Positions 21,466 through 60,795 of a DNA stretch of 64,000 bases are shown piece after piece. How positions within the stretch are numbered: position 1 is the first letter of the stretch; the number at the start of each line of letters is the position of its first letter. The position numbers and the translations under genes are program-made. The stretch is from the NCBI GenBank assembly GCA_963281255.1, contig OY725495.1:3162001-3226000 (forward strand), in the 5' to 3' direction. The DNA is from Aphrocallistes beatrix. Taxonomy: Eukaryota > Porifera > Hexactinellida > Sceptrulophora > Aphrocallistidae. Below the pieces are notes generated by a model that saw only the letters and a list, made by a program, of their open reading frames with translations, made no database searches and was not told the DNA's origin.

Positions 21466-22507
21466 AAACAGAACGAAACCTGAAAGAGAACTTCCTTCAT
21501 GAAACTCAAGAAAAAAATCTTTTTTAGATTTAGAAGATAGACTGGCAGAGGTGCGACTCCATCAACCAGAGACAAGTCTGAAGTTTCAAGGAGACTCGGG
21601 ACACGTAGAACAACTGATCCTAGGTCTGGGAGAAATTATATAGCAAGAAGTACTAGTAGTCCCCCGCTACCAGGATATGAAAGTAACGGTAGCTGTGGGG
21701 AAGAAAGGACAGGGAGATGGGGAGATATCATCTCCTAATGGTATCGCAATTGACCAGAACACAGGCAATATTTACGTAACACAAGAAATAGGATTCGTTG
21801 AAAACAGTGGAAGAGTATCCATCTTTTCTCAGTCAGGAGAGTTCCTAGATAGCTTCGGACAGAAATACATGAATGTCCCACGCGGCATAGCGATACATGG
21901 AAACTACGTGTATGTGTCAGATGATACTCATAAAGTGTTTGAATTCAAACAAGGAACTAACATCAGTCTAGTCAAGAGTGTAGGAGGCCAGGGAACTGAA
22001 GATGGAATGTTCAATTATCCAGGACAAATATGCGTTTCTACGAATGGAGATGTGTACGTGACTGATTGGTTAAATAATAGGATACAAATCCTGGATAGTT
22101 CTCTCCATTTCCTGCGCAAAATATCTCACCAATCATTGAGCAGTCCATATGACATCAAGCTAACAGAAGATGAAGTGTATGTGCTTAGTACTGCAGACAA
22201 CCCCTGTATCCATGTCTTCTCTCACGACGGAGAGAAGATACGTTCTTTGATAACACGAGGCATAAACCAGTGTACTAATCGGGGTTATTACTTCTGTCAC
22301 GATGGAAACAGAAATATAATAATCAGTGATAAGTCGGATCACTGCATTAAAGTCTTTTCTGCTGAAGGAACACTCCTGCACAGGACAGGAGAACAAGGTG
22401 ATGGGAAAGGAATGTTTCAACATCCTAAAGGAATAGCTTTGACGAAAGATCTCAAACTAGTTGTCGTGTCTAAAAACAAGAATTATGGTCTACAAATATT
22501 TTGTTGA
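21466..22507 (+). pseudogene. Tandem NHL copy with decayed coiled-coil part
   Basis: Sequence similarity to the gene at 20072 begins abruptly at 21466 (ACAGAAACAGAACGAAAC), inside the coiled-coil region. The 5' part (21466-21660) has stops and a frameshift relative to its neighbour. From ATG 21677 a clean 276-codon frame (MKVTVAVGKKGQGDGE) preserves the whole NHL propeller through the stop at 22507, and the 3' UTRs are alike (AATAAA at 22557-22562). So either this is a pseudogene still young in its propeller half, or it encodes a propeller-only protein from the internal ATG. TTTCAAATTACAG just before the homology resembles a splice acceptor, so an upstream exon is also possible. Changes between copies include many that alter residues. 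Confidence 0.7.
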
Positions 22508-39400: not shown

Positions 39401-42400
39401 TACCCCATCTCATTAACGCACAGATGTTGACAATTTGCCTCATTTGAGCATTCATCAATGTCTGTACAAGATGTATTGTCAAGTTCTAAACTGAATCCTT
39501 CGGCACATGAACAATAGTATGAACCATTGGTATTAGAACAAAGGCCGCCACATCCTCCATTATTCTTGAGACACTCATCAATATCTATACAGTCAAAGTC
39601 AGCTGCTGTTAAGATGAATCCATTAGGGCAAGCGCATTGATAAGACCCGATTTCGTTAATGCACAGATGTTGACAATTTGTATCATTTAAACATTCATTA
39701 ATGTCTGTACAAGATGTATTGTCTGATTCTAAACTGTATCCTGGTGCACATGAACAATAGTATGAACCATTGGTATTCGAACAAATGTCACCACAGCCTC
39801 CATTATTCTTAAGACACTCATCACTATCTACACAGCCAAAATCAGCTGTTAAGATGAATCCACTAGGGCAGGCGCATTGATAAGATCCATTTGTATTTCT
39901 ACATATTTGTTGACAACTGTGCATGCCGTAGAAACATTCATCAATGTCTGAACAAGATGTATTGTCTGATTCTAAACTGTATCCTGGTGCACATGAACAA
40001 TAGTATGAACCTCTAGTATTGACACAAATATCTTCACAGCCTCCATTATCATCAAGACATTCGTCAAAATCATAACACCTCCCTGAATAACTTGGAAAAT
40101 ATCCATTTACACAGTCACATCTGAATGACCCCATTGTGTTTAGGCATATTTGTTCACAATTGTGTGACCCATTTAAACATTCATCAAAGTCACAAGATCT
40201 GTTATCCGGTTCTAGAGTGTATCCCTGTGGACATGAGCAATGGAATGAACCATCGTTGTTATTACACGTCTGCTCACAACCGCCATTGTTAAACAAACAC
40301 TCATCAAAATCTCTGCAAGTTGTATCACCTATCAAGTTGAATCCTGATAAGCAACTGCAGAAGTGCGAACCATTAGTATTTGTACAATTATGATCACAAC
40401 CTCCATTGTCAATGAGACACTCATCAATGTCTACACATTCATCAGAAGCAATTAAGTTGTATCCTGGATAACAGTCACAAACATAGGAGCCAGGAGTGTT
40501 GCTACATCTGTGAGAACATGGGCTAGTAGAACATTCATTGATGTCTTGACAAGATTTTCCATCTGAATCCAAGCGATAGCCTTCAAAGCAAGAACAATAG
40601 TAATAACCATTCGTATTTATACAATTCTGGTCACAGTTTCCATTCACAAGACACTCGTCTATATCTATGCAGTTACTGGTGTCAGTTAACATGAATCCAG
40701 GATTACAGTCACACATGTATGAACCTTCAGTGTCAATGCATCGGTGATGGCACAAATTGGAATCAATGAAACATTCATCTATGTCTGTACAAGATGTCTG
40801 GTCTGATTCTAAACTGTATCCTAGTGCACATGAACAATAGTATGAACCTCTAGTATTGGAACATATATCTTCACAGCCTCCATTACCATCAAGACATTCG
40901 TCAAAGTCATAACATCTCCCTGAATAACTTGGAAAATATCCATTTGCACAGTCACATCTGTAGGACCCCATTGTGTTTAGGCATGTTTGTTCACAGTTGT
41001 TTAACCCAGTTACACATTCGTCAAAGTCATTGCAAGATCTGTTATCCAGTGCTAGAGTGTACCCCTGTTGACATGAGCAATAGAATGAACCATCGCTGTT
41101 GATACACGTCTGTTCACATTCACCATTATCTACAAGGCACTCGTCAATGTCATTACATGCTCCTTCAGCTGTTAAGGTATATCCCTCTTCGCAATTGCAA
41201 AAGTAGGATCCAATCGTGTTTCCACATAGCTGCTCACATGTATGTGTTCCATCTGTACATTCATTTATGTCATAACAGTATGTTCCATTTGAATCAAAAT
41301 TATATCCCTGGTGACAAGAACACTTGAACGAACCTTCGGAATTAAGACACCTTTGATCACAACCGCCATTGTTATATAAACACTCATCAACATCTCTGCA
41401 AGTAGTATCACCTATCAAGTTGAATCCTGATAAGCAACTGCAGAAGTATGTACCATTAGTATTTGTACAATTATGATCACAACCTCCATTGTCAATGAGA
41501 CACTCATCAATGTCTACACATTCATCAGAAGCAATTAAGTTGTATCCTGGATAACAGTCACAAACATAGGAGCCAGGAGTGTTGCTACATCTGTAGGGAC
41601 ATGGGTTAGTTGAACATTCATTGATGTCTAGACAAGATTTTCCATCCGAATCCAAGCGATAGCCTTCAAAGCATGAACAGTGATAAGAACCATTCGTATT
41701 TGTGCAGTTCTGGTCACAATTTCCATCGACAAGACACTCGTCTATGTCTGTGCAGTTACTGGTGTCAGTTAACATGAATCCAGGATTACAGTCACAAAAG
41801 TATGAACCTTCAGTGTCAATGCATCTGTGATGACACAAATCAGAATTATTGAAACATTCATCAATGTTTAGACAAGATTTTCCATCCAAATCCAAGGCAA
41901 ACCCTTCAATGCAATTACAGTCATAAGAACCATTCGTGTTTAAACAGATCTGGCCACAATCATCAGCACCAAGACTACACTCGTCTATGTCTGTGCAGTT
42001 ACTGGCGTCGGTTAACATGAATCCAGGATTGCAGTCACACATGTATGAACCTTCTGTGTCAATGCATATGTGATGGCACAAAAAAGAATTATTGAAACAT
42101 TCATCAATGTTTAGACAAGATTTTTCATCTGAATCCAAGTAATAGCCTTCAAGGCAAGAACAGTCGAATGACCCATTATTGGTAGAGCAATATTCCTCGC
42201 ATTCTCCATTATTTATCGTGCATAGGTCTACTAAACATTCATTCCCACTCATATAGTATCCATAATTACACTCGCAATAAATGCCATCTTCCGAATTAAA
42301 ACAAGAACTGTTCCCTGGGCAAGTAAAGGACTTGTTGAAGCATTGATAGGACACACTTAAAACGCAATACTGGTACATAGAACTGTCTGTGATAGCTCCA

Positions 42401-43473
42401 CCACCTACTCCGTTCGATGTAGCGCAATTACCTTTTATAGCCAAGTTGAAATTCTGAGACACATAATTGGCCCACAGCAAATCGCAGTCACAATTGAAAG
42501 GGTTGTCATACGCCGAAATCACATTCAGTCTGGGCTGTTGCTGAAAGAAAATTGATCCTAATCCTGTCAAATGGCAGGAGTAAAAATTAATAATAATTAA
42601 ACTTGGAAAGACTGTGTATTGGATCCTTTCTATGTTGATTGAAGAGTAAAAATTGAGACTTGTAAGAGCAATCAGTCCCTCAAATGCCCTATCTTCGATT
42701 ACAGTTGTGGGAGTGAGTAGAAGATAGAGAATGACTAGCCTTGTGCACCTTATAAGTTGGTTAGAATATATAATATCAAACGTTCCTATTTGTAGAGAGG
42801 TTAAACTTGGAAAAGGATCAAAAGTGTCACGTGTTAGTGAGTACCAAGGGATGTTAGCTTCTAATTGGAGAGTTTTAACATTCGGGAATTGGTAGGTGGT
42901 GGTGAGTGGGGTGCGCAGGGAGGGTAGGAGAACATCAACACAAAATATTTCTTCTAAGTGAATATGGTAAATTTGAAACAAAAGAAAACTGGTAAATCTC
43001 GGTCTTGTCAACCCAAGATATTTGACATTCGGAAGGTAAGTGAGAAGATTAGACTGAGAGAAAAAAATAGACTGTGAAGAGAAAAAAGAACAAGATAGGA
43101 GAGATATATGGTAACGGCTCCACACAATATTGATTATACTATTATCGCTTGGATTATGGCGAAAAATAACAGTGCTGATATTATCACTAATGTCGAGGGA
43201 TATATCTCCAGATACTGAACGCGTGATATAGAACCGGATGGAGGTAAAGGTGAGGGAGAGGAAGTCGTAAGCACCTCTACTGCACTCCGTGATGGCGTTA
43301 CTGATCAGGGAAGCATCAGTTGAATAGAAATAACAGTCAAGGCAACCAAAAGAAATGCTACATTGAAGCTCACTAGTCGAACAGGGATGCCCGTCGACTA
43401 GATGGGCTGAAAAGCAGAATACAATAATTATAGCACAAAATAGATGCATTACCAAACTGTAGTGAACTGACAT
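24460..43473 (-). CDS. Giant intronless LRR/EGF surface protein, probably GPI-anchored
   Basis: One uninterrupted frame codes for about 6,337 residues from ATG 43473; the frame extends to 43626, but this start best precedes the signal peptide (LFCAIIIVFCFSAHLVDG). ATG 43449 is an alternative. LRR-like strands (LTSLQIGTF, LTSLNFYSS) lead to an LRR C-terminal cap (NPFNCDCDLLWANYV ... YQYCVLS), then the CFNKSFTCPGNSSC EGF shared with the gene at 9519. The remainder is roughly 145 EGF modules, nearly all calcium-binding (DIDEC start) with CxNTNGSYxCxC. N-G-S/T in nearly every module gives over 100 potential N-glycosylation sites, and the pattern also fits Asn beta-hydroxylation. The C-terminus is hydrophobic with no tail after SFTAMLALIAFLIIQLFST, which fits a GPI signal. 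Fibrillin-1 has 47 EGFs, so this is about three times larger. It probably forms a long, calcium-stiffened rod at the cell surface for adhesion or recognition. Repeats at nucleotide level show recent internal duplication. Confidence 0.9.
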   Translation of the reverse strand: MSVHYSLVMHLFCAIIIVFCFSAHLVDGHPCSTSELQCSISFGCLDCYFYSTDASLISNAITECSRGAYDFLSLTFTSIRFYITRSVSGDISLDISDNISTVIFRHNPSDNSIINIVWSRYHISLLSCSFFSSQSIFFSQSNLLTYLPNVKYLGLTRPRFTSFLLFQIYHIHLEEIFCVDVLLPSLRTPLTTTYQFPNVKTLQLEANIPWYSLTRDTFDPFPSLTSLQIGTFDIIYSNQLIRCTRLVILYLLLTPTTVIEDRAFEGLIALTSLNFYSSINIERIQYTVFPSLIIINFYSCHLTGLGSIFFQQQPRLNVISAYDNPFNCDCDLLWANYVSQNFNLAIKGNCATSNGVGGGAITDSSMYQYCVLSVSYQCFNKSFTCPGNSSCFNSEDGIYCECNYGYYMSGNECLVDLCTINNGECEEYCSTNNGSFDCSCLEGYYLDSDEKSCLNIDECFNNSFLCHHICIDTEGSYMCDCNPGFMLTDASNCTDIDECSLGADDCGQICLNTNGSYDCNCIEGFALDLDGKSCLNIDECFNNSDLCHHRCIDTEGSYFCDCNPGFMLTDTSNCTDIDECLVDGNCDQNCTNTNGSYHCSCFEGYRLDSDGKSCLDINECSTNPCPYRCSNTPGSYVCDCYPGYNLIASDECVDIDECLIDNGGCDHNCTNTNGTYFCSCLSGFNLIGDTTCRDVDECLYNNGGCDQRCLNSEGSFKCSCHQGYNFDSNGTYCYDINECTDGTHTCEQLCGNTIGSYFCNCEEGYTLTAEGACNDIDECLVDNGECEQTCINSDGSFYCSCQQGYTLALDNRSCNDFDECVTGLNNCEQTCLNTMGSYRCDCANGYFPSYSGRCYDFDECLDGNGGCEDICSNTRGSYYCSCALGYSLESDQTSCTDIDECFIDSNLCHHRCIDTEGSYMCDCNPGFMLTDTSNCIDIDECLVNGNCDQNCINTNGYYYCSCFEGYRLDSDGKSCQDINECSTSPCSHRCSNTPGSYVCDCYPGYNLIASDECVDIDECLIDNGGCDHNCTNTNGSHFCSCLSGFNLIGDTTCRDFDECLFNNGGCEQTCNNNDGSFHCSCPQGYTLEPDNRSCDFDECLNGSHNCEQICLNTMGSFRCDCVNGYFPSYSGRCYDFDECLDDNGGCEDICVNTRGSYYCSCAPGYSLESDNTSCSDIDECFYGMHSCQQICRNTNGSYQCACPSGFILTADFGCVDSDECLKNNGGCGDICSNTNGSYYCSCAPGYSLESDNTSCTDINECLNDTNCQHLCINEIGSYQCACPNGFILTAADFDCIDIDECLKNNGGCGGLCSNTNGSYYCSCAEGFSLELDNTSCTDIDECSNEANCQHLCVNEMGYYQCTCPNGFVLTERGGCLDIDECLDANGGCEQNCSNSNDSFKCSCYQGYDLDLDGKSCLDVNECANESHTCQHICNNTKGSYNCDCQTGYIIMNGTGICQEINECMVNNGECEQECVNTNGSYHCLCDQGYNKSTDERSCIDINECEIQTDDCQQICMNTNGSYSCDCEPGFNLTSTRKCLDIDECLFNNGSCEHTCNNRNGSYHCSCAPGYYLDTDGKSCTDLNECTNGTHVCQQICVNTNGSYFCECREGYTNMNMTDPGVCLDINECSVSNGGCDHNCSNINGSFYCSCRQGYYLDTDAKSCLDIDECTNGTNTCQQICRNTNGSYYCECLSGFNLTDSGSCPDIDECLVSNGGCDQECNNTVGSFKCSCLQGYDLQADEQSCLDIDECSNDTSICQQICLNNNGSYNCDCESGYNLTTNGNCLDIDECSDGTHTCQESCQNTNGSYLCECQTGFNVTETGKCLDIDECLVSNGGCKQICNNTNGSFNCSCNQGYILDLDARSCLDVNECLNGTNNCQHICLNSNGSYYCDCYSGFNLTMSGSCLDQDECLVSNGGCDQTCTNTNGSFLCSCLQGFNFSTDGRFCLDVNECLNDDTNICQQICENTNGSYNCDCRAGFNLTVTGHCLDIDECLVSDGGCEHICTNTNGTFNCSCSPGYRLHSDGKSCIDVDECSSNNHTCQHVCQNTNGSYFCECFPGFNLTNTGSCLDIDECFLDSDNCSQICFNRNGSFYCSCRQGYYLDTDDKFCLDIDECTNGTNTCEQICHNTNGSYLCECLSGFNLTESGSCPDIDDCLINNGGCDQECNNTVGSFQCSCLQGYDLQADEQSCLDIDECSNDTSICQQICLNNNGSYNCGCESGYNLTTNGNCLDIDECSDGTHTCQESCQNTNGSYLCECQIGFNVTTTGKCLDIDECLVSNGGCKQICNNTNGSFNCSCIQGYFLDLDARSCLDVNECLNGTNNCQHICLNTNGSYNCDCYSGFNLTMSGSCLDQDECLVSNGGCDQTCTNTNGSFLCSCLQGFYLDEDGMSCFDTDECLFNNGSCEHNCINSNGSYHCSCAPGYYLDTDGKSCTDLNECTNGTHVCQQICVNTNGSYFCECREGYTNNMTDPGVCLDINECSISNGGCEDICSNTRGSYYCSCAPGYSLESDNTSCSDIDECFYGMHSCQQICRNTNGSYQCACPNGFILTADFDCVDSDECLINNGGCGGICSNTNGSYYCLCTEGFSLEPDNTSCTDIDECSNGANCQHLCINEIGSYQCACPSGFILTANFDCIDIDECLMDYGGCGGICFNTNGSYYCSCLEGFSLESDNTSCTNVDECSNDSDLCHHRCIDTEGSYFCDCNPGFMLADTSNCTDIDECLVDGNCDQNCTNTNGSYHCSCFEGYRLDSDGKSCLDINECSTNPCPYRCSNTPGSYVCDCYPGYNLIASDECVDIDECLIDNGGCDHNCTNTNGTYFCSCLSGFNLIGDTTCRDFDECLYNNGGCDQMCNNSDGSFFCSCPEGYTLEPDNRSCDFDECSNGSHNCDQICLNTMGSFRCDCVNGYFPTYSGKCYDFDECLDDNGGCEDICVNTRGSYYCSCAPGYSLESDNTSCSDINECSNGANCQHLCINEIGSYQCACPNGFSLTADFGCIDIDECLINIGGCGDFCSNTNGSYYCSCAEGFNLEPDNTSCTDIDECLNGINCQHLCINEIGSYQCACPNGFVLTERGGCLDIDECANNDHYCQQICLNKNGSYNCDCESGYNLTTNGNCLDIDECSDGTHTCQESCQNTNGSYLCQCQTGFNVTATGKCFDIDECLSNNGGCDQICNNTNGSFSCSCTQGYYLNVDDRSCLDVNECTNGMDSCQQICVNTNGSYTCECFHGFNQTSTGSCIDIDECMFMNGGCDHNCSNTNGTFNCSCRQGYYLDTDAKSCLDIDECTNGTNTCQQICNNTNGSYHCECLSGFNLSANGSCPDIDECFVSNGGCDQECNNTVGSFQCSCLQGYDLLADEQSCLDIDECSNDTSICQQICLNNNGSYNCDCESGYNLTTNGNCLDIDECSDGTHTCQESCQNTNGSYLCECQTGFNVTETGKCLDIDECLVSNGGCKQICNNTNGSFNCSCIQGYILDLDARSCLDVNECLNGTNNCQHICLNTNGSYNCDCHSGFNLTISGSCLDQDECLVSNGGCDQTCTNLNGSFLCSCLQGYYLDIDGMSCFDTDECTSNTHNCQHICLNTNGSYLCNCSSGYNLTITGDCLDIDECLFNNGSCEHNCVNSNGSYYCSCASGYNLGTDMKSCADVNECTNGTRLCQQICENTNGSYSCDCQQGFNLTASGGCVDIDECLINNGGCDQTCTNTNGSFYCSCLQGFNFSTDGRFCLDINECSNDDTNICQQICENTNGSYNCDCRTGFNLTVTGHCLDIDECLVSDGGCEHICTNTNGTFNCSCSPGYRLHSDGKSCIDVDECSSNNHTCQHVCQNTNGSYFCECFPGFNLTNTGSCLDIDECFLDSDNCSQICSNRNGSFYCSCKQGYNIDADGISCNDINECINGTNTCEEICLNTNGSYLCECPNGFNVTTTGNCIDIDECLFNNGGCDHSCNNTNGTFSCSCLQGYNLNTDNQSCIDINECSNGSHSCQQICVNTNGSFLCDCNPGFNITTYGFCIDIDECLMENGGCEHSCNNRNGSYHCSCAPGYYLDTDGKSCTDLNECTNGMHVCQQICVNTNGSYFCECREGYTNNMTDPGVCLDINECSISNGGCDHNCYNINGSFHCSCRQGYYLDTDAKSCLDIDECTNGTNTCEQICRNTNGSNHCECFRGFNLTESGSCPDIDECLVSNGGCDQECNNTFGSFQCSCLQGYELLADERSCLDIDECSNDTSICQQICLNNNGSYNCDCESGYNLTTNGNCLDIDECSDGTHTCQESCQNTNGSYLCECQTGFNVTATGKCLDIDECLSNNGDCDQICNNTNGSFSCSCTQGYYLNVDDRSCLDVNECTNGMDSCQQICVNTNGSYTCECFHGFNQTTNGSCIDIDECMFMNGDCDHNCSNTNGTFNCSCRQGYYLDTDAKSCLDIDECTNGTNTCQQICNNTNGSYYCECLSGFNLSANGSCPDIDECFVSNGGCEQECNNTVGSFQCSCLQGYDLQADEQSCLDIDECSNDTSICQQICLNNNGSYNCDCESGYNLTKNGNCLDIDECSDGTHTCQESCQNTNGSYLCECQTGFNVTATGKCIDIDECLVSNGGCKQICNNTNGSFNCSCIQGYILDLDARSCLDVNECLNGTNNCQHICLNTNGSYHCDCHSGFNLTMSGSCLDQDECLVSNGGCDQTCTNSNGSFHCSCLQGFNFSTDGQFCLDINECSNDDTNICQQICENTNGSYNCDCRTGFNLTVTGHCVDIDECLVSDGGCEHICTNTNGTFNCSCSPGYRLHSDGKSCIDVDECSSNNHTCQHVCQNTNGSYFCECFPGFNLTNTGSCLDIDECFLDSDNCSQICSNRNGSFYCSCKQGYSIDTDGISCNDINECLIGTDTCEEICVNTNGSYLCECPTGFNVTTTGNCIDIDECLFNNGGCDHSCNNTNGTFYCSCRQGYDLNTDDRSCIDFNECLNGTDTCQHFCINTNGSYLCDCMQGFNLMYTGSCIDIDECLFGNGNCQHTCINIDGTFNCSCRQGYYLDTDGESCLDIDECANGTNTCQQICNNTNGSYHCECLSGFNLTTNGSCPDIDECLVSNGGCDQECNNTFGSFQCSCLQGYDLLADEQSCLDIDECSNDTSICQQICLNNNGSYNCDCESGYNLTTNGNCLDIDECSDGTHTCQESCQNTNGSYLCECQTGFNVTATGKCIDIDECLVSNGGCKQICNNTNGSFNCSCNQGYILDLDARSCLDVNECLNGTNNCQHICLNTNGSYNCDCQSGFNLTMLGSCLDQDECLVSNGGCDQTCTNLNGSFLCSCLQGFNFSTDGQFCLDMNECLNDDTNICQQICENTNGSYNCDCRTGFNLTVTGHCVDIDECLVSDGGCEHICTNTNGTFNCSCSPGYRLHSDGKSCIDVDECSSNNHTCQHVCQNTNGSYFCECFPGFNLTNTGSCLDIDECFLDSDNCSQICSNRNGSFYCSCKQGYNIDSDGTSCNDINECLIGTDSCEEICLNTNGSYLCECPTGFNVTTTGNCIDIDECLFNNGGCDHSCNNTIGTFYCSCRQGYELDTDDRSCIDFNECLNGTDTCQHFCTNTNGSYLCECMQGFNLMSTGSCTDINECLFGNGNCKHTCINIDGTFNCSCRQGYYLDTDDKSCLDLDECLVNNGGCEQNCYNFRGSYVCYCFQGYILDETESFCLDIDECSEEIHNCQHICSNTNGSYDCLCHSGFNLAMSGSCLDQDECLVSNGGCDQTCTNTNGSFLCSCLQGFYFDTDGMSCFDTDECTSNTHNCQHICLNTNGSYFCDCYSGFNLTNTGNCLDINECIPDNGGCEQTCYNTNGSFYCSCNAGNSLNADGKSCLNITECVEQLQQTGNFSISQCRHGFITTLSGNCSDIDECISNHGGCDQTCSNTNGSFYCSCLLGYSLDADNTSCVDSDECVLSPCQHNCTNTLGSYGCSCTPGFTLVNTTRCIDMDECGLNNGGCDQDCYNSIGSYVCFCFPGYILDETESFCLDIDECSGEIHNCQHICSNTIGSYDCLCYSGFNLTMSGSCLDQDECLVSNGGCDQTCTNTNGSFLCSCLQGFYFDTDGMSCFDTDECASNTDNCQHICLNTNGSYFCDCYPGFNLTTTGNCLDINECIPDNGGCEQTCYNTNGSFYCSCNEGNSLNADGKSCINITECVEQLQQTGNFSISQCQHGFITTLSGNCSDIDECISNHGGCDQTCSNTNGSFYCSCLLGYSLDADNTSCVDSDECVLNPCQHNCTNTLGSYGCSCTPGFTLVNTTRCIDMDECGLNNGGCEQLCSNTFGSYECMCECGYEMDIISQTCKKNEGCTNKSNSIHISFESFTAMLALIAFLIIQLFST
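24970..26430. repeat. 945-bp duplication inside the EGF gene (C-terminal end)
   Basis: Two adjacent segments are offset by exactly 945 bases (315 codons): the GGTCTGATCACATCCTCCGT anchor occurs at 25351 and 26296. Each includes an odd module, NITECVEQLQQTGNFSISQC, that keeps only about three of six EGF cysteines. Since both copies share that defect, it predates the duplication. Confidence 0.8.
26590..30237. repeat. Two tandem 1,824-bp units inside the EGF gene
   Basis: Three separate anchors are offset by exactly 1,824 bases (608 codons, about 15 EGF modules): ATACAATTTCCTGTTGTAGT at 26951/28775, ATGCTGACAAGTGTGG at 27271/29095, and the ATGTGTTGGCAGTTGTTTG anchor at 27758/29582. Identity is very high, so the duplication is recent. 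Related, less regular copies occur further along (anchors at 32017 and 37345). Confidence 0.85.
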
Positions 43474-43860
43474 TCGATATAACATATAAGTATTCAGTAA
43501 CGACATGTCACATGATTTACACCTACTAGATTCTGAATTGCATAATGTGATGAACGTTGTGAGTGTGATGAATTGGAACTTCTCATTTGCTAGTTCCAAT
43601 AGTCTAGCCACCAGGAAGTACGTCAAGATTTAACACTATACTAAATAACTACTGTATGTAAACATGTAGACTGGTTAATAATCACTTGGAGTTCCACCGA
43701 TAAGAAACACTGAACAGTGCTCATTGATTAATTATTCATAACGCTCCCGTTTTACATACAACTGTGGTCAGTTGTTTTACTAACTAAAGAAACTCTCCTG
43801 TCAGTTGATATGATTTGATATTTCAACATAGATAATCCACCAAGACTAAGTAATGCGCAA
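43474..43860. other. 5' flank of the giant EGF gene
   Basis: The reading frame stays open to 43626, but the signal peptide argues that coding begins at 43473 or 43449. No clear TATA box. The promoter should lie here or just beyond the 43861 palindrome. Confidence 0.35.
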
Positions 43861-44133: not shown

Positions 44134-45312
44134 CTAATACAAGTTTATTTTATGATTGAAATAATCAACAGAAATAATAATATTATCCTTAGTCACTGCT
44201 ACTCCTGCAGGATAGTAGTTGCACTTGATCCTGTGAACCAACTGACCTTCTAACGTGCATATTTGGATTACTTTACTAGACCAATCACTAATTATAATAT
44301 TATTAAACTTATCAAAGCATAGAAATATATTACTAGCTCCATCACTTAAGCCTATTATACTTTTCAGTAAATCTCCGTTTTTAGAGTATATATGTATATT
44401 AGGCGTACCATTATCAGCTATAAACACTGTATTTAAATGTACTGTAACATCTCTTGGCTTTACTAGCTTATGATTCCCTAATTCTCTAATGAATTCAAGA
44501 TCTAAACTTAACACAACTATTCTATTATTCTCACAATCTGCTACAAACACTTCATTATCATCTATTGACATGCCTAACGGAGATCTAAGTTCTAACACAC
44601 TCTCACACTTAAATTGATACGTTTGTACTTCATATTTTAGGACTTTATTCAGTTTAAAATCGGTTATAAATAACCACCTTTTGTCTAAAGCTACGTATCG
44701 AGGTTGGTTGAGCTCTCCCTTACCAAACTCGCCAATGTATTGACCTACCGAACTAACTAACTGAATTCTGCTGTTACACGTATCAGCTATGAACATATTT
44801 CCTTTCTCATCCACCACTACACCACTCGGATAGCTTAGCTCCACTCCCCCCTTCCCTGCTCTGCATCTCGACTTAATCGGACTTGATTTCTTGCGATATA
44901 GGTCTAAGAGCGGTAAATTTTGCAAGGTGCCGAACATCTCTATCTTTTGCTTTAGTTCTTTTAAATGAAATGTGAAGTGAATGGATGGAATGAGAGTTGG
45001 TTGCTGGTATTTTTCTTGCTTCTCCTTTAGTTTTTGTAAGTGTTCATAATGCATATCACTAATGGAATTCTGTTCCAGCTCCATCTCTTCATTCTGTCTT
45101 AAAATCGTATCCACTTTTTTGATATTTTTGATTCGCATCTCCTCATCACTACGATAGTCATTTATCAACTTTCGTAGCTGCAGCAGCAGCTGGTCCCTTC
45201 TCTCTATCAGTTTCTGCACAAGAAAGTTAAAGGCTTTTCTGATGGAAATTTCCAATAAGTCGAATATTTCTGATTCGAGCATTGGTACGCTCTCTGGAAA
45301 TTGATACGCCAT
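44134..45312 (-). CDS. Coiled-coil NHL-repeat protein
   Basis: A single-exon 392-residue protein. MAYQFPES recalls MATQFPEP of the gene at 20072, so both belong to one family. A coiled coil at about 35-130 (KLIERRDQLLLQLRKLINDY, QKLKEKQEKY) is followed by NHL blades from about 150: YPSGVVVDEKGNMFIADTCN, NQPRYVALD, LRSPLGMSIDDNEVFVADC, KPRDVTVHLNTVFIADNG, NIIISDWSSK and YPAGVAVTKDNIIISVDYFN. No RING, B-box or filamin domain. It lies on the opposite strand from the other NHL copies and is more diverged, so the family spread earlier than the 20-22 kb tandem event. Probable cytoplasmic adaptor, partners unknown. Confidence 0.87.
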   Translation of the reverse strand: MAYQFPESVPMLESEIFDLLEISIRKAFNFLVQKLIERRDQLLLQLRKLINDYRSDEEMRIKNIKKVDTILRQNEEMELEQNSISDMHYEHLQKLKEKQEKYQQPTLIPSIHFTFHLKELKQKIEMFGTLQNLPLLDLYRKKSSPIKSRCRAGKGGVELSYPSGVVVDEKGNMFIADTCNSRIQLVSSVGQYIGEFGKGELNQPRYVALDKRWLFITDFKLNKVLKYEVQTYQFKCESVLELRSPLGMSIDDNEVFVADCENNRIVVLSLDLEFIRELGNHKLVKPRDVTVHLNTVFIADNGTPNIHIYSKNGDLLKSIIGLSDGASNIFLCFDKFNNIIISDWSSKVIQICTLEGQLVHRIKCNYYPAGVAVTKDNIIISVDYFNHKINLY

Positions 45313-48701: not shown

Positions 48702-50656
48702 ATGTCACAAATTGAATTGGAAAAAAAGCGAAATGGAATTGCGATTAGAGAAGGTTCACAAGATAAAGAGGAGGATTCAGTGATATCAAATAATGTTCAA
48801 GAGAAATATTATAATGGAAAGTTCGGATTATTCGGTTTTAACCCAAAATGCCTTCAATTTGTAAACCACCCCATAGCTTTCCTTATCTCTCTTTGTTTCT
48901 TCGCAACCGTTCAAGGATCTGTTGCCACAGGCTATATCTCAGTGGGGCTCTCAAGCATCGAACGTCGTTACAGTCTACCCAGCGCCCTAGCTGCATTCGC
49001 AGCGATCTCGTACGAAATAGGCGTCATTCTAACTCTCCCTATCAGCACCTACTTCGGTGGTCGAAGTCACAAACCGAAAGTTCTAGGCATTTCTCTTCTC
49101 ATAGTGGGAGTAGGATCGCTAGTCTTTGCGTCTCCACATTATTTTAGCAGCCACTACAACATCGACGCTAACTCTTCAAGTGAGATATGTACCAATGCTT
49201 CAAACTTTCAAGCACAATGCAATCCTCCCATCATCCTCTTCTATCCACTCTTCGTCATAGGGAATATACTAATTGGCTGTGGAGCAAGCGCGCTGTATAC
49301 AGTGGGAGTAGGATTTCTAGACGACAGCACCCATCCCAGATACACTCCAATATACCTCAGCATTTTCTACATCGTATCAATCATAGGTCCAGCGATAGGT
49401 TTCGCACTTGGAGGTGTGTTTCTATCCGTCTTCGTAGACCCATTTTCTAGCACCACGCTGACTAGTTCTCACCCTCAATGGATCGGAGGGTGGTGGATCG
49501 GGTTCGTGCTCTCGGGGATAGCATCAGTAATTGGTGCTATCCAATTCTTCCTTTATCCAAGGCGTCTTAAACACTCCAAGGAATACGATGAACTGAGAAA
49601 AACTCAACAACCACTTCAAGACAAAGGCAGATCTTTTGAGAATGACCACAGTGTATCGATTGTCACAATGTTCCAGGAATACCCAAACTATGTATGCAGA
49701 CTCGCTAAAAATCCCACTTATTTATTCACCACATTTGGTCTAACATCAGGTGCATTCGTGATAGCAGGGATTGTCACATTTATGCCCAAATATATCGAAG
49801 TTCAATTCTTTCTTACTCCCAGCTTAGCATCTTACGTGATCGGTGGTGTCAGCATTCCGGCTGCTTCTATTGGTTTCTTAGCTGGCGGGATAATACTATT
49901 CATATTTAAGAAAATATCGGTAGAACATCTAGCTCTGTGTGTTTTTATCCTCACCTTACTTGAAGTCGTTATTCCTCCCCTCTACCTACTCGGGTGCAGC
50001 TCCACTAACATTGCTGGGGTTAGTTCTAATTATCCCAACTCAACCGCTAGAACGAATTTTGTCCCTCGGAATCTCAATGTCAGCTGCTTGTCTTCTTGTA
50101 ATTGCAAACTAAACACCTACCAGCCAATTTGCTCAGAAGGTGTCAACTACTTTTCTCCCTGCCTAGCTGGATGTCCTAACGAGCCTAGTCCAAACGGATC
50201 ATACACTGGCTGCTCCTGTCTCGATCAAGACCTGATCGCCTCTAAAGGCAAATGTCCCAAGAGTTGCATAGTTAAGCTCATCATCGCAATTGTAATGTTT
50301 TTCCTGGCGATTATACTCTCTCCTTCAACCATGTCCCCTTGATCAAACTTACCTTGAGATGTGTAGCTGATACAGATCGTACAGTTGCACTGGGGTTGCA
50401 GTCTTTAATCGTTCGTGCTTTGGGACAGTTACCTGGGCCATTGGTACTCGGAGGAATTTTCGATTTGAACTGTATTCTTTGGGAAGAAACAGAGTGTGGT
50501 GACCGTGGAGCGTGTTTAGAATACAACACCCTTACTCTGAGGTACTCTCTGATTGGGATGAAGGGACTCTCACTTGTGACTTCGAGCATTTTCTTCTTTA
50601 TTGGGTGGGTTACTTGGAAATACAGAAAGCTTAATATTCAAGTACCGCATTATTAA
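48702..50656 (+). CDS. Organic anion transporting polypeptide (OATP/SLCO), apparent frameshift
   Basis: Frame one runs 48702-50342 (546 codons) and frame two continues at 50339-50656. The family's conserved LRCVxxxxRxxALGxQxxxxRxLGxxPGP motif, here LRCVADTDRTVALGLQSLIV followed by RALGQLPGP, lies in the second frame directly after the first ends, so both are one gene of about 650 residues (family 640-720). A cytoplasmic N-terminus, then about 12 transmembrane helices (ALAAFAAISYEIGVILTLPI, GGWWIGFVLSGIASVIGAIQ) and a Kazal-like cysteine-rich loop (CNCKLNTYQPICSEG ... CPKSC) between TM9 and TM10. These carriers move bile salts, steroid conjugates, eicosanoids and other amphipathic anions across the plasma membrane. 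The -1 shift falls in ATGTCCCCTTGATC, a C run, so an assembly error is plausible; a genuine disabling change is the alternative. Confidence 0.88.
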
Positions 50657-54088: not shown

Positions 54089-57000
54089 TTGTATACAACA
54101 GATGCAGAAATGTTTTCAAGTTTGTACAACTTTGCAAAAAGATATCTTAAAACCTCAGATAATGTCACTCACTCATCTAATCACTCAACATCACCAGATC
54201 CTGAAATCGAGGATGTAGAGTCTTTACAAGATAGACTTTTTCATCTGGATCTGAACGAAAAAAGTGTAGAATTTATAAGTGAACATGGGGACGAATTTGT
54301 GGATTATCCAGAAGCTTTGGCAGAAAGATTATCAATCAAAGTAAGCGTTGCCAAAGAAGCGTTGGACGAATTAAAGGCTTATAAGATCGATCAAATTTCG
54401 AAAGAAGAAATTCAAAGATTCGAACTGTTAGTCAAAGAAAACCCACAGAAAGATCCAAAGGAGATTGCTCTATCGCGTGGCATTGGTGGAGATGTCTTGT
54501 CAGCATATTTAGCGTCTTCAGAAACAAATCTATTGACTGATTCTGCAAAGGCAACAATAACAGAAAAATATAATAATGGATTCTCAATAACAGAAATCGC
54601 AAAACAATTGAATGTAGTATCCCAAGTGAAGATAAAAGACTATGTTGAATGCACTTTTATTACATTTAATGGAGAAGAAGGGAATATCATTTTGGAAATC
54701 ATTACCAGAAACTTTGAAACTTATCCAATAACTAAACTAAAAGAAATGATTTTAACTAAAAGCGTTAAACTTCAGGAACAAATATGCTGTCAACTACTAG
54801 AAAGGAATGAAGAAGAATATAAACAGCTAGAAAATTACTTCATGAAATTCGAAGGATCGAGAAAATTCCTTGAAATCGATGCCACGTTAAGCATTGAAGC
54901 CAAGAATGATATCAGAACAAGTAGCCTCGAAGATATAGGAGAACTCAGCCTAAAACTGAATAAAATGGAGAGTGTAATCAGAGACTACATACTACGGTAT
55001 TCTCAAGACGAAGAACTCATGCTTGATTGTGCACAAAGACAATTGAAGCAAATTCAAGAAATAAAGGCGAGCTTCGGGACTGACAGAGAAATATCACACA
55101 CTACATACAGAATGATAATATCTGATTCTAACGAAAACTTAATTCAGAATGCAAAACATTTGAATGGATCACCAAAAAGAATACTTGACGAACTCCTTCC
55201 TCTCGCATTCTATTATATTAAGTGCAGTTTGCCGTTAGACGAATTTACTCAGATAATCACTAGCATAACTAACATATCACTAACTACCTTGGACATCTTC
55301 CATTTAATCTTTCAAATGTCGGATCCTGTAGTCAGAGGTCTCTGCATAGAACACTATTCATTCAGTAATCCGGTTCCATTATACTATCCAATACTCGAAT
55401 CGCACACTCCAGAACTAAAATGTAGTCAATTTGAAATATGTAAAGAACTCTGGTATTCTCTGCAACAGTTCAGTGGTTTAGTTTCTTTTGGGTTAGGATG
55501 GGCTTCTTGGAATCCGATTGGAAAATCCCATCTCCTGGATTTAATTTTTAAGACAGATTTTGAGAAGGGAAGTCCTCACAGCAGTCCATTCCACATGAAT
55601 TCTATCGATATACAGATGACAAAAAATCTATTTGGAAAAAAGGGCAGAAATACCCAGGAATCAACAGAATGGGCATATATAGACTGCCACGGATGCCCAG
55701 ATATTAATTTCATTGGAGAAATTTGTCAGAATTTGGATATAGCGTTAATTCATGTCAGTTATTCTGACTATAGAGAGAACTATTCTCGATTGACTGAAGA
55801 CTTAATTAAAATCACAGCCAACACTAAGGATGTCTATGTATTGGTTCGAGATTGCATGGAAAGTGATGTAAATACTAAACAAGTGATATTGGAGGGTAAA
55901 ACATTTCTTTTAATCTTTATTCCGAATCTAATCCAACATAATGCAAGTATTAACATTGTTTCAGAATTAAAAAAGATCGGATACACAATCTTGCATTCTC
56001 TGATTGAAGTTCCAAAATTGGTTGGAAGCAATTTCCTCGAAAATCTGATCACTCGAAATGATAATTGGGCTAATTTAAAGGAAGAGAAAGAATTGATCGA
56101 ATGGATGAAGAGTAATTGTACATACAGCCAGGATACAGACCAAGAATTTTCATTCCTCAGTTATTATCCTCATTTTGTAGAGTATATGCGTTGTTTCTAT
56201 AAAGCTTCTACTGAAACAGACCAAAAGAATATCGATCAGTTGAATAAAAAAAGTGAACTTCTTGAAGAACATCTCAAAAATGCTGAAATGAGTGCAATTG
56301 TTTGGCAGTTCAACGAAATTCTAGCACAGCAAAATTCAACATTAATTTTATGGAAATTGTCACAAGAACTCAACATGCTCTCCAAACAGCAAAGTACTGC
56401 AAATAATAAAACGCCTTTCACTTTAGAAATTCTCTGGAGAGAAGCATTGCTTTCAAATAAATATAATGTCAACCCTGATGGAGGAAAACCAGAAAGTAAA
56501 TATTTTGAAATATTTTCATCAAACTTCAGTAACCACGTGGAGAGAGGAGAGCCATTCGAGTTGATTGATGGAGATAACCTCAGATTCTTTAATCAAGACA
56601 TCGACGTCTTATTGTCCAAACTATATGAGCAACAATTTTGCAATATAACCAAAAATAAAAATAAAACACGAGCACCAATAGTTGTCAGCATATTCGGACC
56701 TCAGAGTTCTGGAAAGTCTACGCTACTGAACTATTGTTTCGGGTGCAAGTTCCTAACTAGTGCTGGCAGGTGTACCAAAGGAGTCTATGCGTCTCTTTCT
56801 AAGCTAAGTCAACCAATCAACCATTCTGATCATTTCCTTATCCTTGATACAGAAGGATTAGATGCCATTGAGAAAGGAAAGACTCTTCAAGATACTTCAT
56901 GCATTCACTTTGACAGGACAATGGTACTGTTTTGTTTAGCGGTGTCAGAAGTAGTTATCATTAATGTGAAAGGTGACATCGGAGAAGAAATGAGGAATCT

Positions 57001-58252
57001 TTTACAAATATGTGCTTACTCTCTGAACAAATTGAAAGTAAGCAAGGTAGCAACTCCAAAAATATTCTTTGTTCTCAATCAACAAGCAGATCCGGATCCA
57101 GATAAACATTTAAATTCAATTAACACCCTTTTGGAAAAACTTAATAAAGAGTCATATCTTTTGGACACGGAAGGATTGAAAATTTCTCATTTAATACAAG
57201 TGTCAAAAGAAAACTTGTTTGTCCTTCCATCAGCTTTCAATTCAGAATCTCTGAATTCTCAAGTAGCCAATTTATTTGATTCACATGTATGCAAGTTATC
57301 CCCAACCGTCGATTTCGTGAATAAATGTGCTGACATACGAGTGTCCATCATCCTCCAACTGAAAAACGACAGCTATGATGCAACGGATTCCAACAATACA
57401 AATCATAATTACACAGTACCATTTGACACAATGAGTGAATGGCTGGAGATGTCTGGAGTTATTTGGGACACTATCGTTAAATATCAAGATATTGTTAAGT
57501 ACAGTAATACTGAGGAAATTAAGTGTAGCAACAAACTTGGTATCATATTGAATGATATAATGAGATGTAGAATTTATTTGAATGAAGAAGAATATCGAGA
57601 AATTACAAAAAAATTAATTTCAGAGATTAAGGGCATTGCCAGATTCAGTCCGCCCAATGTAATCCTAGAAAAAGTGAAGGAAAAGTTGAACGATGCATTC
57701 GAAAAATACCAAGAAAAGGCTTTGACAGATTTTGCTTCACAATGCGAAGCTGATCCATTACTAATGAAACTGTCTTATATGTGTGAAGAAGCTAAATCGA
57801 ACTTATGCAGACTGATCTATGTCGAAAAAAAGATTTATGAAGATAAACTAAAGTTACAAATCAAGGCTAGGCTAACTGAAATAAAGCATGAAGATAATAT
57901 GGTGAAATTTCAACAGATTATTGAAAAGAATGCTGACAAATACTTAGAGCTAACCATTACAGAGCAAGATAAAGAATTTGAGGAGGTTTGGGTCCACTGC
58001 TTTGGTAGTTTTGATAAGGAAGAAGAAGAAGCTGAGTTTTATGAGAAGTTTGAAGATTTATTCTCTGTATTCAGGATGGAATCAAAACAATGGAGAACAG
58101 ACATACACTTTATTCTCAATTTTGTGATCACAACTTTGATATGGAATCCAAAATTCAATTACTTTCTAAAACAATGCTCTCAAAGTTTTCCGAAAATAAT
58201 TCAGGAACAGATCAATTCATATATCCTTGGAAAGAGAACAAAACACCCTTAA
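54089..58252 (+). CDS. VLIG/GVIN-like giant GTPase, N-terminal and GTPase part
   Basis: A 1,387-codon uninterrupted frame. The listed start is the upstream end of the open frame; ATG 54110 (MFSSLYNFAKRYLKTSDN) is the likelier initiator. Residues about 40-200 hold repeated helical segments with helix-turn-helix-like spacing (YNNGFSITEIAKQLNVVSQV). A degenerate GTPase-like region is near 460-640, with IGKS at 477-480 and EWAYIDCHG, comparable to the first pseudo-GTPase of URGCP/VLIG proteins. The real G domain starts at 870: GPQSSGKST (P-loop, 870-878), GRCTKGVY (switch I), DTEGL at 920-924 (G3), then VLNQQADPD as a possible G4. Very large inducible GTPases are interferon-induced in vertebrates and act in the cytosol; members here need not be. 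The frame overlaps the next by 163 bases, and the two together match one ~2,250-residue protein, close to the family's ~2,400. Confidence 0.85.
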   Translation: MYTTDAEMFSSLYNFAKRYLKTSDNVTHSSNHSTSPDPEIEDVESLQDRLFHLDLNEKSVEFISEHGDEFVDYPEALAERLSIKVSVAKEALDELKAYKIDQISKEEIQRFELLVKENPQKDPKEIALSRGIGGDVLSAYLASSETNLLTDSAKATITEKYNNGFSITEIAKQLNVVSQVKIKDYVECTFITFNGEEGNIILEIITRNFETYPITKLKEMILTKSVKLQEQICCQLLERNEEEYKQLENYFMKFEGSRKFLEIDATLSIEAKNDIRTSSLEDIGELSLKLNKMESVIRDYILRYSQDEELMLDCAQRQLKQIQEIKASFGTDREISHTTYRMIISDSNENLIQNAKHLNGSPKRILDELLPLAFYYIKCSLPLDEFTQIITSITNISLTTLDIFHLIFQMSDPVVRGLCIEHYSFSNPVPLYYPILESHTPELKCSQFEICKELWYSLQQFSGLVSFGLGWASWNPIGKSHLLDLIFKTDFEKGSPHSSPFHMNSIDIQMTKNLFGKKGRNTQESTEWAYIDCHGCPDINFIGEICQNLDIALIHVSYSDYRENYSRLTEDLIKITANTKDVYVLVRDCMESDVNTKQVILEGKTFLLIFIPNLIQHNASINIVSELKKIGYTILHSLIEVPKLVGSNFLENLITRNDNWANLKEEKELIEWMKSNCTYSQDTDQEFSFLSYYPHFVEYMRCFYKASTETDQKNIDQLNKKSELLEEHLKNAEMSAIVWQFNEILAQQNSTLILWKLSQELNMLSKQQSTANNKTPFTLEILWREALLSNKYNVNPDGGKPESKYFEIFSSNFSNHVERGEPFELIDGDNLRFFNQDIDVLLSKLYEQQFCNITKNKNKTRAPIVVSIFGPQSSGKSTLLNYCFGCKFLTSAGRCTKGVYASLSKLSQPINHSDHFLILDTEGLDAIEKGKTLQDTSCIHFDRTMVLFCLAVSEVVIINVKGDIGEEMRNLLQICAYSLNKLKVSKVATPKIFFVLNQQADPDPDKHLNSINTLLEKLNKESYLLDTEGLKISHLIQVSKENLFVLPSAFNSESLNSQVANLFDSHVCKLSPTVDFVNKCADIRVSIILQLKNDSYDATDSNNTNHNYTVPFDTMSEWLEMSGVIWDTIVKYQDIVKYSNTEEIKCSNKLGIILNDIMRCRIYLNEEEYREITKKLISEIKGIARFSPPNVILEKVKEKLNDAFEKYQEKALTDFASQCEADPLLMKLSYMCEEAKSNLCRLIYVEKKIYEDKLKLQIKARLTEIKHEDNMVKFQQIIEKNADKYLELTITEQDKEFEEVWVHCFGSFDKEEEEAEFYEKFEDLFSVFRMESKQWRTDIHFILNFVITTLIWNPKFNYFLKQCSQSFPKIIQEQINSYILGKRTKHP

Positions 58253-60795
58253 AAGAAATGACACCCTACACAGGAAAGTTCAATTGTGAGTACTTGACTA
58301 GTGAGTCATTGTTTTTTAAGAAAGAAAAGAAGAGAACATCTAGTAAAACAAAATCTAAGATAGGCTTTAAAAGATGGGTTCCACGAAGCTGTACTCCACT
58401 AATCGAATATTGTTCAGGTTATTACAACCATCCTGATATCATTTGGAAACTTGAGAAGAAAAAACAAATACTCTTGCTAGCTTCTCGATTAAGAGATCCG
58501 AACAATTTGAAGAGGAGTACTTGGGAAAAATTTCTCCACGACATATCAGAACGCATTCAAGAAATAACAGAGAAAGATCCAGACATTTCTCACTCAACAG
58601 TGAAGGAGATCGTAGATATCTTATGTCACATCTGCAGAGTAGTGAACTATGAAATTAATTTTATCGAAGCTAAATTGACAAACGCAGCGGAGAGAACACT
58701 ATCGACTTATGCATTTGGCCTTGCATTCAAGTCGAGTTTAAAACTTAAAAAAGATAAATTAAGGGAGAATATACTTATTGAAAGAGAGAAGAGAGAAACT
58801 AATCTGGATTATTTCTTACAAAAAGTTGAAAATAGAAAATTGGCGAAAGGTAATTGGGACCGGAAAAAAATGAGGGATGGTGACAAGACAATTGCGAACA
58901 AATTTGCTCGGGATTTTCTAGCTGCTGTTTGGAGAAAAGTCAGCACAGAGTGCGAACATAATGTCAATGAGAGATATTTTGTTTCACACAGAGGTAAACT
59001 TTCACACAAAACTATCTTACTCCTAGCAAATGAAAATATTACAGAAGAGGTAAACAGATGTCATGAAGATTCAATTAATGAGGAAAATGTCATAATCCAG
59101 CACACATGTAATCGAACTCAAAACCTGAAACAGTTATTCAGAGAAGAATGGATAAAGCTTGCGAATGAACTCCATGACAAAATAGTGGGAACTATGAGAG
59201 AGTCTTTTTCTGAACAGATAGCAAAAATCAAGTATGTCCTGACAGAATTCTTAAATGATCTAGTCGCTAACTGTGAAAAGTTAGATCGTGTCGTGGATAT
59301 AGGATCAGACTCAGATAGCAACTTTGAAGTCACTAATAAAACAATAGAACTAACTGGCAATTCAGATTCCAGATCAGGAGTAATTCCTTTTAAAGCAATG
59401 GTATCATTCCTAGAGCTGTACCTCGATCCAAAAGTGTGTACAGAAGAATTTGAAAAACATTTCAAAGATGAATTTGTGGTGGATGGAGTGGCAGTAAAAA
59501 AACATCATGATACCTATGTGTTATTTGAAAAACCACTTTATGCAACACAAGTCTTGGAAGAGGATTTGTTTAAAAGCTTAACGGAAACAACCATGTTCAG
59601 GAGCACTGAAACTATATTCAACATCAAAGTGTACGTACAGGAATTCTTGCGTGTGTTAAACTGCTATGAATATCAAGTAAGCGAGGCTGAATACGGAAAG
59701 ATTTTAAAATCTACGAAGGAAGAATTCGAAGCACGTGTCATTAACTGCCTCCGACAATGTCCTAGTTGCGGTAAATTCTGTGAGAAAGAAATTCATCCCC
59801 ATGGGGGGAGGTGTCAAATAATGACAGGTCATCAGATATGTTCAATGGGAGGAAACGTCTGGAATACCAACGAAGATCGAACTGCAATTTTGCTAATGTG
59901 TGAAGACTACCGAGATGACACACCAGTGCTGATACCAGGACAGTGCATGAAGTGGTGGCAGTTCAAAGAGAAGTGCGGGGACCAGTGGGACTGGAGTCTT
60001 CCTACTGATGAAGAATACGTAGCTTTACGAAATAAGAATCGAGAACAAATGAAAGAGATTTGGAATAAATTCGGAAGAGAAATACTGAAATACTACGCTA
60101 ATAAAGGCACACAGATTACCTACATTCCTTACACTACTCATGAAGAGATATACGAATCTTTATTCTTACGCTACTTTATCTGTTTCGTTATTGATGGTAC
60201 TGATCTAATGGGTGGAACAATAAACTTCTTTAAAACATGGATTTCCGATATTATGAAAGATGCTCCACGAGGAACTTCATGTTTTAAAGTTATTGTCTAT
60301 CATGGCCATGCAGTTAACAGACAAAAATGTGTGGAAAAATTTCCAAATAATTCTCAATTCACTACAGATGCCACAAGCATACAGCATTTCCTTCAAACCA
60401 TTTCTACTTATGGCAGCGAGGGAAATGAAATACCGATGCTGCATGGTCTTGCTACAGCCACGACTGAATGTGATTGGAAATCGGGATTGGGTGTAGAAAA
60501 TGTTATTTTCCACTTTTATATCGAACCCACCAAAGGGCATTTCGATGCTTCTAGAGCTAGAGGGAGATGTAACCAAGGTGTGTGTTTATTTGATTGGGAA
60601 AGAGACATCAAAGATAAAATCGATAATTTGAAGATTGATTATAAGTATGAACGTTATATTAACAAGTCCCATCCCTCATACGCAGATTGCACTGGATTTG
60701 TTAGTCACCAAGTTCCTTCTAGACTCATTAGGGACTTGAGGAAGGAATCTGATCCCAAACCAAGCATTCTCATCAATTACGAAACTGACAATTGA
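58090..60795 (+). CDS. VLIG/GVIN-like C-terminal part ending in a vWA-like domain
   Basis: A 901-codon frame in +1 frame relative to the preceding one. It contains the VLIG C-terminal cysteine region from residue 557 (CPSCGKFCEKEIHPHGGRCQ), then ILLMCEDYRDDTPV and WDWSLPTDEEYVALRNKNRE, as in family members. After that comes an added von Willebrand A-like domain at about 695-870: FVIDGTDLMGG (MIDAS-like, D702, T704, with L706 where S is usual), SIQHFLQTISTYGSEGNEIP, and VIFHFYIEPTKGHFDASRAR followed by LKIDYKYERY. The last blocks resemble vWA domains of the alpha-kinase type. It most likely continues the same gene as 54089-58252, because neither part is complete alone. The frames switch somewhere in 58090-58252 by frameshift, assembly error or an unrecognised tiny intron. 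Two separate adjacent genes are less likely. Confidence 0.82.
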   Translation: MENRHTLYSQFCDHNFDMESKIQLLSKTMLSKFSENNSGTDQFIYPWKENKTPLKEMTPYTGKFNCEYLTSESLFFKKEKKRTSSKTKSKIGFKRWVPRSCTPLIEYCSGYYNHPDIIWKLEKKKQILLLASRLRDPNNLKRSTWEKFLHDISERIQEITEKDPDISHSTVKEIVDILCHICRVVNYEINFIEAKLTNAAERTLSTYAFGLAFKSSLKLKKDKLRENILIEREKRETNLDYFLQKVENRKLAKGNWDRKKMRDGDKTIANKFARDFLAAVWRKVSTECEHNVNERYFVSHRGKLSHKTILLLANENITEEVNRCHEDSINEENVIIQHTCNRTQNLKQLFREEWIKLANELHDKIVGTMRESFSEQIAKIKYVLTEFLNDLVANCEKLDRVVDIGSDSDSNFEVTNKTIELTGNSDSRSGVIPFKAMVSFLELYLDPKVCTEEFEKHFKDEFVVDGVAVKKHHDTYVLFEKPLYATQVLEEDLFKSLTETTMFRSTETIFNIKVYVQEFLRVLNCYEYQVSEAEYGKILKSTKEEFEARVINCLRQCPSCGKFCEKEIHPHGGRCQIMTGHQICSMGGNVWNTNEDRTAILLMCEDYRDDTPVLIPGQCMKWWQFKEKCGDQWDWSLPTDEEYVALRNKNREQMKEIWNKFGREILKYYANKGTQITYIPYTTHEEIYESLFLRYFICFVIDGTDLMGGTINFFKTWISDIMKDAPRGTSCFKVIVYHGHAVNRQKCVEKFPNNSQFTTDATSIQHFLQTISTYGSEGNEIPMLHGLATATTECDWKSGLGVENVIFHFYIEPTKGHFDASRARGRCNQGVCLFDWERDIKDKIDNLKIDYKYERYINKSHPSYADCTGFVSHQVPSRLIRDLRKESDPKPSILINYETDN

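Follow-up and report, generated by a model that had tools for sequence, protein, structure and literature searches.

A predicted VLIG-type giant GTPase with a C-terminal von Willebrand A domain and an incomplete metal site in the hexactinellid sponge Aphrocallistes beatrix

VLIG GTPases are giant immune GTPases, and the coating of bacteria by a human member has only recently been shown. Human GVIN1 coats intracellular bacteria (PMC12133148; PMC11974893), and it is modelled with two large GTPase (LG) domains plus a C-terminal domain (PMC11974893). Here we describe a gene of this type on contig OY725495.1 of Aphrocallistes beatrix, located at 54089-60795 on the forward strand of a 64,000-nucleotide stretch that we call the window. 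Our reading is that the gene encodes a giant VLIG-type GTPase with a helical N-terminus, GTPase domain(s), a long helical stalk, a cysteine-rich module and a C-terminal von Willebrand A (vWA) domain, and that this protein would assemble on targets inside cells; to the reading taken as a whole, proposed function included, we assign a probability of roughly 0.6. That this architecture occurs together with the loss of the metal ion-dependent adhesion site (MIDAS) we consider close to certain.

Gene layout and domain architecture

The gene is distributed over two open reading frames (ORFs), with the following features:

54089-58252, + strand: ORF1, 1387 amino acids, N-terminal part of the VLIG-type gene, including the GTPase
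58090-60795, + strand: ORF2, 901 amino acids, C-terminal half (helical stalk, cysteine region, vWA, tail)
58084-58087, + strand: meeting place of the two reading frames, uninterrupted in the database copy P0102
56495-57148, + strand: URGCP-like GTPase domain (PF25683), ORF1 residues 803-1020, E 1.8e-29
56696-56722, + strand: G1 P-loop GPQSSGKST in ORF1, within the URGCP-like GTPase domain
59746-59835, + strand: cysteine/histidine region, ORF2 residues 553-582, within residues 551-690, the part of the C-terminal half with the lowest ratio of non-synonymous to synonymous substitution rates (dN/dS)
60160-60765, + strand: vWA-fold domain, ORF2 residues 691-892

ORF1 and ORF2 overlap and differ in frame. 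The database protein P0102 matches window positions 54089-58087 with 99.6% identity over 1333 residues and positions 58084-60792 with 99.8% identity over 903 residues. Because this near-identical copy is one uninterrupted frame of 2235 amino acids, ORF1 and ORF2 are, judged by this comparison, two parts of a single gene, whose giant frame is broken in the window copy. An intron at the join was ruled out, as the two P0102 matches abut; the break may come from the assembly, from a difference between haplotypes or from a true lesion of this copy. The listed start of ORF1 is a mechanically assigned TTG, the first in-frame ATG lies at 54110, and the start is putative.

A sequence-only reading of this DNA had placed a VLIG-type GTPase with a vWA-like end at 58090-60795. 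The frame is found as that reading gave it, and the motifs it quoted are present at residues 699-707, 775-787 and 825-839 (the last beginning with GRCNQG), all past the cysteine region. The assignment to VLIG-type GTPases also stands, with the URGCP_GTPase model scoring 103.1 bits against a curated cut-off of 55, but the domain is located in ORF1, in the other frame: all GTPase motifs lie there and none in ORF2, where no Pfam match exceeded the cut-off. In the cysteine region, which we take to resemble that of vertebrate VLIGs, C553, C557, C560, C564, C575 and H581 are invariant (alignment A1, 25 rows).

At residues 691-892 an AlphaFold2 model has the Rossmann-like vWA fold that the sequence-only reading had expected. 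Averaged by tens of residues, the predicted local distance difference test (pLDDT) score there is 66-87 until about residue 860; from residue 865 it falls below 50. The approximately 200 residues following the cysteine region are homologous to the vWA part of the relative P0010 (35% identity over 171 residues, E 5e-30), which itself matches the Pfam model VWA_4 (PF25106) at 2.6e-11. No Pfam VWA model exceeded its cut-off on the window copy (best Med25_VWA, E 0.043); VWA_4 gave no match at E ≤ 1 on the window copy and none at E ≤ 0.1 on P0102. In the window clade described below, P0004 reaches 23.2 bits with VWA_4 against a cut-off of 27, and one own-genome clade locus reaches that cut-off together with its neighbours. 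Searches of PDB sequences with the ORF alone, with alignment A1 and with P0010 found no vWA over threshold. The domain is therefore detectable only through its kin or its fold; on the strength of the modelled fold and of homology to recognised vWA domains, a vWA is present at the C-terminus. The label alpha-kinase-type in the sequence-only reading presumably rests on the motifs GGGDxPEA and DAPPHG, which are kept in intact relatives and lost in the window copy.

Two further features lie upstream of the main GTPase domain:

54218-55288, + strand: N-terminal region modelled as all-helical (residues 44-400), with helix-turn-helix-like bundles by eye
55490-55549, + strand: P-loop-like stretch GLGWASWNPIGKSHLLDLIF, 5' of the main GTPase, residues 468-487, by eye

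By analogy with GVIN1, the stretch GLGWASWNPIGKSHLLDLIF is a candidate first LG domain. A fold search with the N-terminus returned 41 matches, none of them significant (best E 1.3), several being helix-turn-helix proteins. The N-terminus at window positions 54218-54650 was modelled as a chain of helix-turn-helix-like bundles, and the relatives P0053 and P0057 are concerned as well; P0053 contains six tandem copies of one unit, and several helix-turn-helix Pfam models match it repeatedly.

Loss of the metal site in the window clade

The window copy does not carry a complete MIDAS (DxTxS, GGGD, DAPPHG); D702 and T704 are retained, whereas the serine and two aspartates are gone:

60184-60210, + strand: strand 1 and MIDAS remnant FVIDGTDLM, residues 699-707; D702 and T704 still present, L706 where the S would be
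60298-60309, + strand: YHGH, clade-specific in place of YRDH; R replaced by H in 32 of 32 clade rows
60412-60450, + strand: GSEGNEIPMLHGL in place of GGGDxPEAVLDGL, residues 775-787; MIDAS Asp lost
60508-60537, + strand: FHFYIEPTKG in place of IHIYDAPPHG; MIDAS Asp absent, with a new Glu at the next residue

That the MIDAS is incomplete, with S replaced by L at 706, had been noted before and is borne out. The defect is not one of a single residue, since two Asp are also gone clade-wide and other family members of the same genome carry a full MIDAS.

We compared the motifs in an alignment of 138 rows, from which 19 database rows with an unreadable cysteine motif or insufficient length were left out. 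Rows outside the window clade mostly read DxTxSM, YRDHCD, GGGDxPEAVLDGL and (Y/F)DAPPHG, whereas the clade mostly reads DGTDLM, YHGHAV, GxxGxExxMLHGL and xEPTxG. Residues were counted in 32 clade rows versus 87 others, leaving out 19 duplicate rows; the counts cover the six commonest letters per site, and all letters at six sites. Membership of L024, L030, P0006 and P0007 in the clade was assigned by hand from identity. The Asp of GGGD is found in none of the 30 clade rows with a letter there (kept in 82 others) and that of YDAPPHG in none of 29 (kept in 82 others). The Ser of DxTxS occurs in one of 31 clade rows, the hand-placed P0007, and in 0 of 27 among the 28 clade rows of the tree described below (kept in 86 others). 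The first MIDAS Asp is retained in 30/32 clade rows and the Thr in 29/32. The replacements are themselves conserved: His for Arg in 32/32 rows, Asp changed to Gly (31) or Ser (1), the new Glu in 29/29 rows with a letter, and Thr in 28/29 of the same rows. A CCCC cluster is present in 80/87 other rows and in 0/32 clade rows. Outside the clade, P0080, P0082 and P0089 each lack single MIDAS residues, and P0079, P0085 and P0086 have an altered GGGDxPEA motif with the Asp retained.

In a FastTree phylogeny of 126 rows built from columns preceding the vWA, the clade comprises 28 rows with a support of 100. The tree excluded 20 database rows that duplicate own-genome loci, as well as the loci L024 and L030 and rows that were too short or lacked the motif. 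The clade is nested among MIDAS-intact rows, and its MIDAS loss is therefore derived. No clade row attributable to another species was found, most database rows being nameless.

We assessed selection by the Nei-Gojobori method in clade pairs with dS < 1 (85 of 276). The dN/dS was 0.29 and 0.30 for the stalk, 0.17 for residues 551-690 containing the cysteine region, 0.33 for the vWA and 0.59 for the last 40 residues (60 pairs); pairs with dS < 0.5 (20/276) gave nearly equal values. Purifying selection on the MIDAS-less vWA is thus roughly comparable in strength to that on the stalk of the same proteins. MIDAS-intact own-genome pairs (4 of 15) gave a vWA dN/dS of 0.30 by medians and 0.19 by the ratio of means, with 0.24-0.25 and 0.20-0.22 for the stalk.

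The nearest paralogue by stalk differs from that by vWA in 12 of 24 clade loci, with close calls counted and one of the 12, L021, contributing no vWA data. Two cases are clear. Identity between L017 and L012 climbs from 0.58-0.74 over residues 1-480 to 0.86-0.91 over residues 601-840, and that between L038 and L015 drops from 0.87-0.95 (lower, at 0.68-0.74, over residues 301-420) to 0.51-0.77 past residue 660. In our reading, recombination or gene conversion has moved the C-terminal module between paralogues.

The gene family and its relatives

The genome searched comprises 100.5 Mb in 28 contigs. ORF2 gave 60 matches. The URGCP_GTPase model gave 81, which divide into 18 canonical loci (289-405 bits) and 63 lower-scoring matches of the kind found in the window gene, some genes yielding two of the latter. 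Downstream of these 63, an ORF2-type match follows in 48 cases (using 50 of the 60 ORF2 places) and a VWA_4 match on the same strand at 3.2-5.5 kb, mostly 3.6-3.9 kb, in 25. Of 28 VWA_4 matches in the genome, four are not downstream of a GTPase match, one of these lying inside an ORF2-type match. MIDAS-intact and MIDAS-less members coexist in the genome in many copies each. The GTPase-vWA fusion is a family-wide trait of a large multigene family in this genome. The fusion proposed by the sequence-only reading is accordingly no one-off, being present in one frame in P0102 and family-wide; its adhesion part found no such backing, the human relative GVIN1 acting inside cells.

Among database proteins, PF25683 and PF25106 occur together in 66 of the best 120 of 131 relatives of a MIDAS-intact member. 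Four among these best 120 carry an organism name, all of them from Oopsacas minuta (class Hexactinellida). When the most diverged member used served as query, a further search listed 79 proteins, among them P0129, a protein of 1725 amino acids on a 5.4 kb contig of a metagenome-assembled genome labelled Candidatus Pacebacteria. It has the window gene's order of GTPase, cysteine region and VWA_4, with the MIDAS motifs there by eye, and 34% identity across 41% of the query piece. The contig is probably eukaryotic contamination of a bacterial genome. Since P0129 shares the domain order, the fusion seems not to be limited to these sponges. A bacterial source, which P0129 suggested, was sought by a pattern scan of the genome contigs; none of 27 matches was confirmed.

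P0014, P0122 (and P0124) lack the vWA with the tail kept, belong to separate lineages and have similar boundaries. Such vWA-less forms may be due to alternative splicing (an exitron-like removal, suggested by P0014 and P0122) or to DNA deletion.

The window also holds other genes. On the reverse strand there are a single open frame of 6388 amino acids, mostly calcium-binding EGF-like repeats by eye (24460-43626), and a smaller EGF_CA gene with five matched EGF_CA stretches (9519-11339). NHL-repeat proteins are encoded at 20072-21319 (+) and 44134-45312 (-) by domain scan and at 21677-22507 (+) by eye. The forward strand further encodes a TRAF-like protein that has a MATH domain and matches RING weakly (12361-13416), and an OATP-family transporter (48702-50342).

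Proposed function and comparison with known systems

Like human GVIN1, the sponge protein would work inside cells, with GTP controlling its assembly on a target, for instance an invading microbe, and the cysteine-vWA end serving as a head that docks on the target or a partner. MIDAS-intact paralogues would dock in a metal-dependent manner; in the window clade the head would be a pseudo-vWA that needs no metal and presents a new surface, itself conserved, or one with a rebuilt site. This head-of-a-coat function, drawn by analogy, is tentative. A bolder reading is unlikely. In it, these sponges would possess a set of giant GTPases that form coats inside cells and have their cysteine-vWA heads swapped among paralogues by recombination, and in one lineage the MIDAS would have been remodelled into a different conserved site (D702, T704, His 738/740, Glu 812) whose metal or ligand chemistry is new. 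If true, a very early-diverging animal phylum would have an innate immune system that works by swapping heads.

Several observations weigh against our reading, and part of them would favor a decaying pseudogene in which MIDAS loss is the plain decay of an unneeded domain. The window copy carries the frame break at 58084-58087, and frame changes were found in 9 of the 30 loci examined (out of 60 with ORF2 matches, the window locus included), so that pseudogenes are common or the assembly contains errors. P0122 and P0124 (contigs) and P0014 (transcriptome) have no vWA and keep the last segment, hence the vWA is dispensable in some members; P0014, the only clear transcript among the matches, is a different gene, probably from another species. 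The median dN of vWA versus stalk is 0.310/0.225 in the clade and 0.090/0.194 in MIDAS-intact pairs (only four), so, measured against its stalk, the clade vWA is under weaker constraint, which fits some relaxation. In addition, no structure matched at E ≤ 1e-3 when Foldseek was used alone. A recognition head might be expected to show positive selection, and the vWA as a whole gave no sign of it. No VWA or VWA_4 match lies within 15 kb of any of the 18 canonical URGCP loci, but because Pfam models miss most vWAs of the window clade this control excludes recognisable vWAs only. Against decay, the near-identical P0102 is uninterrupted, and L021 is broken in this assembly, yet the vWA motifs are continuous in P0006, which matches it at 98.9%. 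The replacement residues are conserved, and purifying selection on the MIDAS-less vWA (dN/dS about 0.33) makes decay unlikely as the whole story; we regard it as improbable.

The vWA could instead be a module for self-assembly or partner binding, for instance by pairing of MIDAS-intact with MIDAS-less members, rather than a target-recognition head. The abundance of both MIDAS types in one genome and the purifying, not diversifying, selection on the vWA speak for this, but C-terminal exchange among paralogues fits a variable head at least equally well, and we hold it possible without favoring it. An extracellular adhesion or scaffold protein is the weakest reading and very improbable: vWA domains are common in adhesion proteins and the highest-Z structural matches of the model are integrin beta I-like domains, but these reflect the fold alone, the window copy has lost its MIDAS, and the bacteria on which human GVIN1 acts are intracellular (PMC12133148). 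A many-copy sponge family with metal-site-intact and metal-site-lost members side by side represents a natural experiment on the C-terminal end of VLIGs, and it may show how an intracellular defence repertoire diversifies in an early-diverging animal.

Oopsacas minuta proteins carrying both Pfam domains (PF25683, PF25106) are already on record, named just 'Interferon-induced very large GTPase 1', 'P-loop containing nucleoside triphosphate hydrolase' or 'hypothetical protein'. Among the best-matching open-licence papers, judged by their abstract openings, none describing a VLIG-vWA fusion was found. The terms 'GTPase' and 'von Willebrand' do not occur in the main text of the Oopsacas genome paper (PMC10280926) or the Aphrocallistes paper (PMC10282587), nor VLIG and URGCP in PMC8195603.

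Among the closest described proteins are those of VLIG type in Oopsacas minuta: P0051 and P0066 share the GTPase, cysteine region and C-terminal VWA_4, P0040 is a C-terminal part, and all differ from the window gene in their intact MIDAS. P0129 agrees in domain order and differs by its MIDAS motifs, present by eye, and by its identity of 34%. With VWA_4 (PF25106) the window copy shares sequence homology through MIDAS-intact paralogues and the vWA fold, whereas its MIDAS motifs are replaced and it falls below Pfam detection. The Pactolus I domain (PDB 2iue) belongs to an integrin-like protein of unrelated architecture. With the VLIG/GVIN1/URGCP family (PF25683) the gene shares a GTPase over the Pfam cut-off, a long helical region, a C-terminal cysteine region and, in the P0102 copy though broken in the window, a giant frame, and perhaps, through its second P-loop-like stretch upstream, the two-LG layout of GVIN1; it differs by its extra C-terminal vWA.
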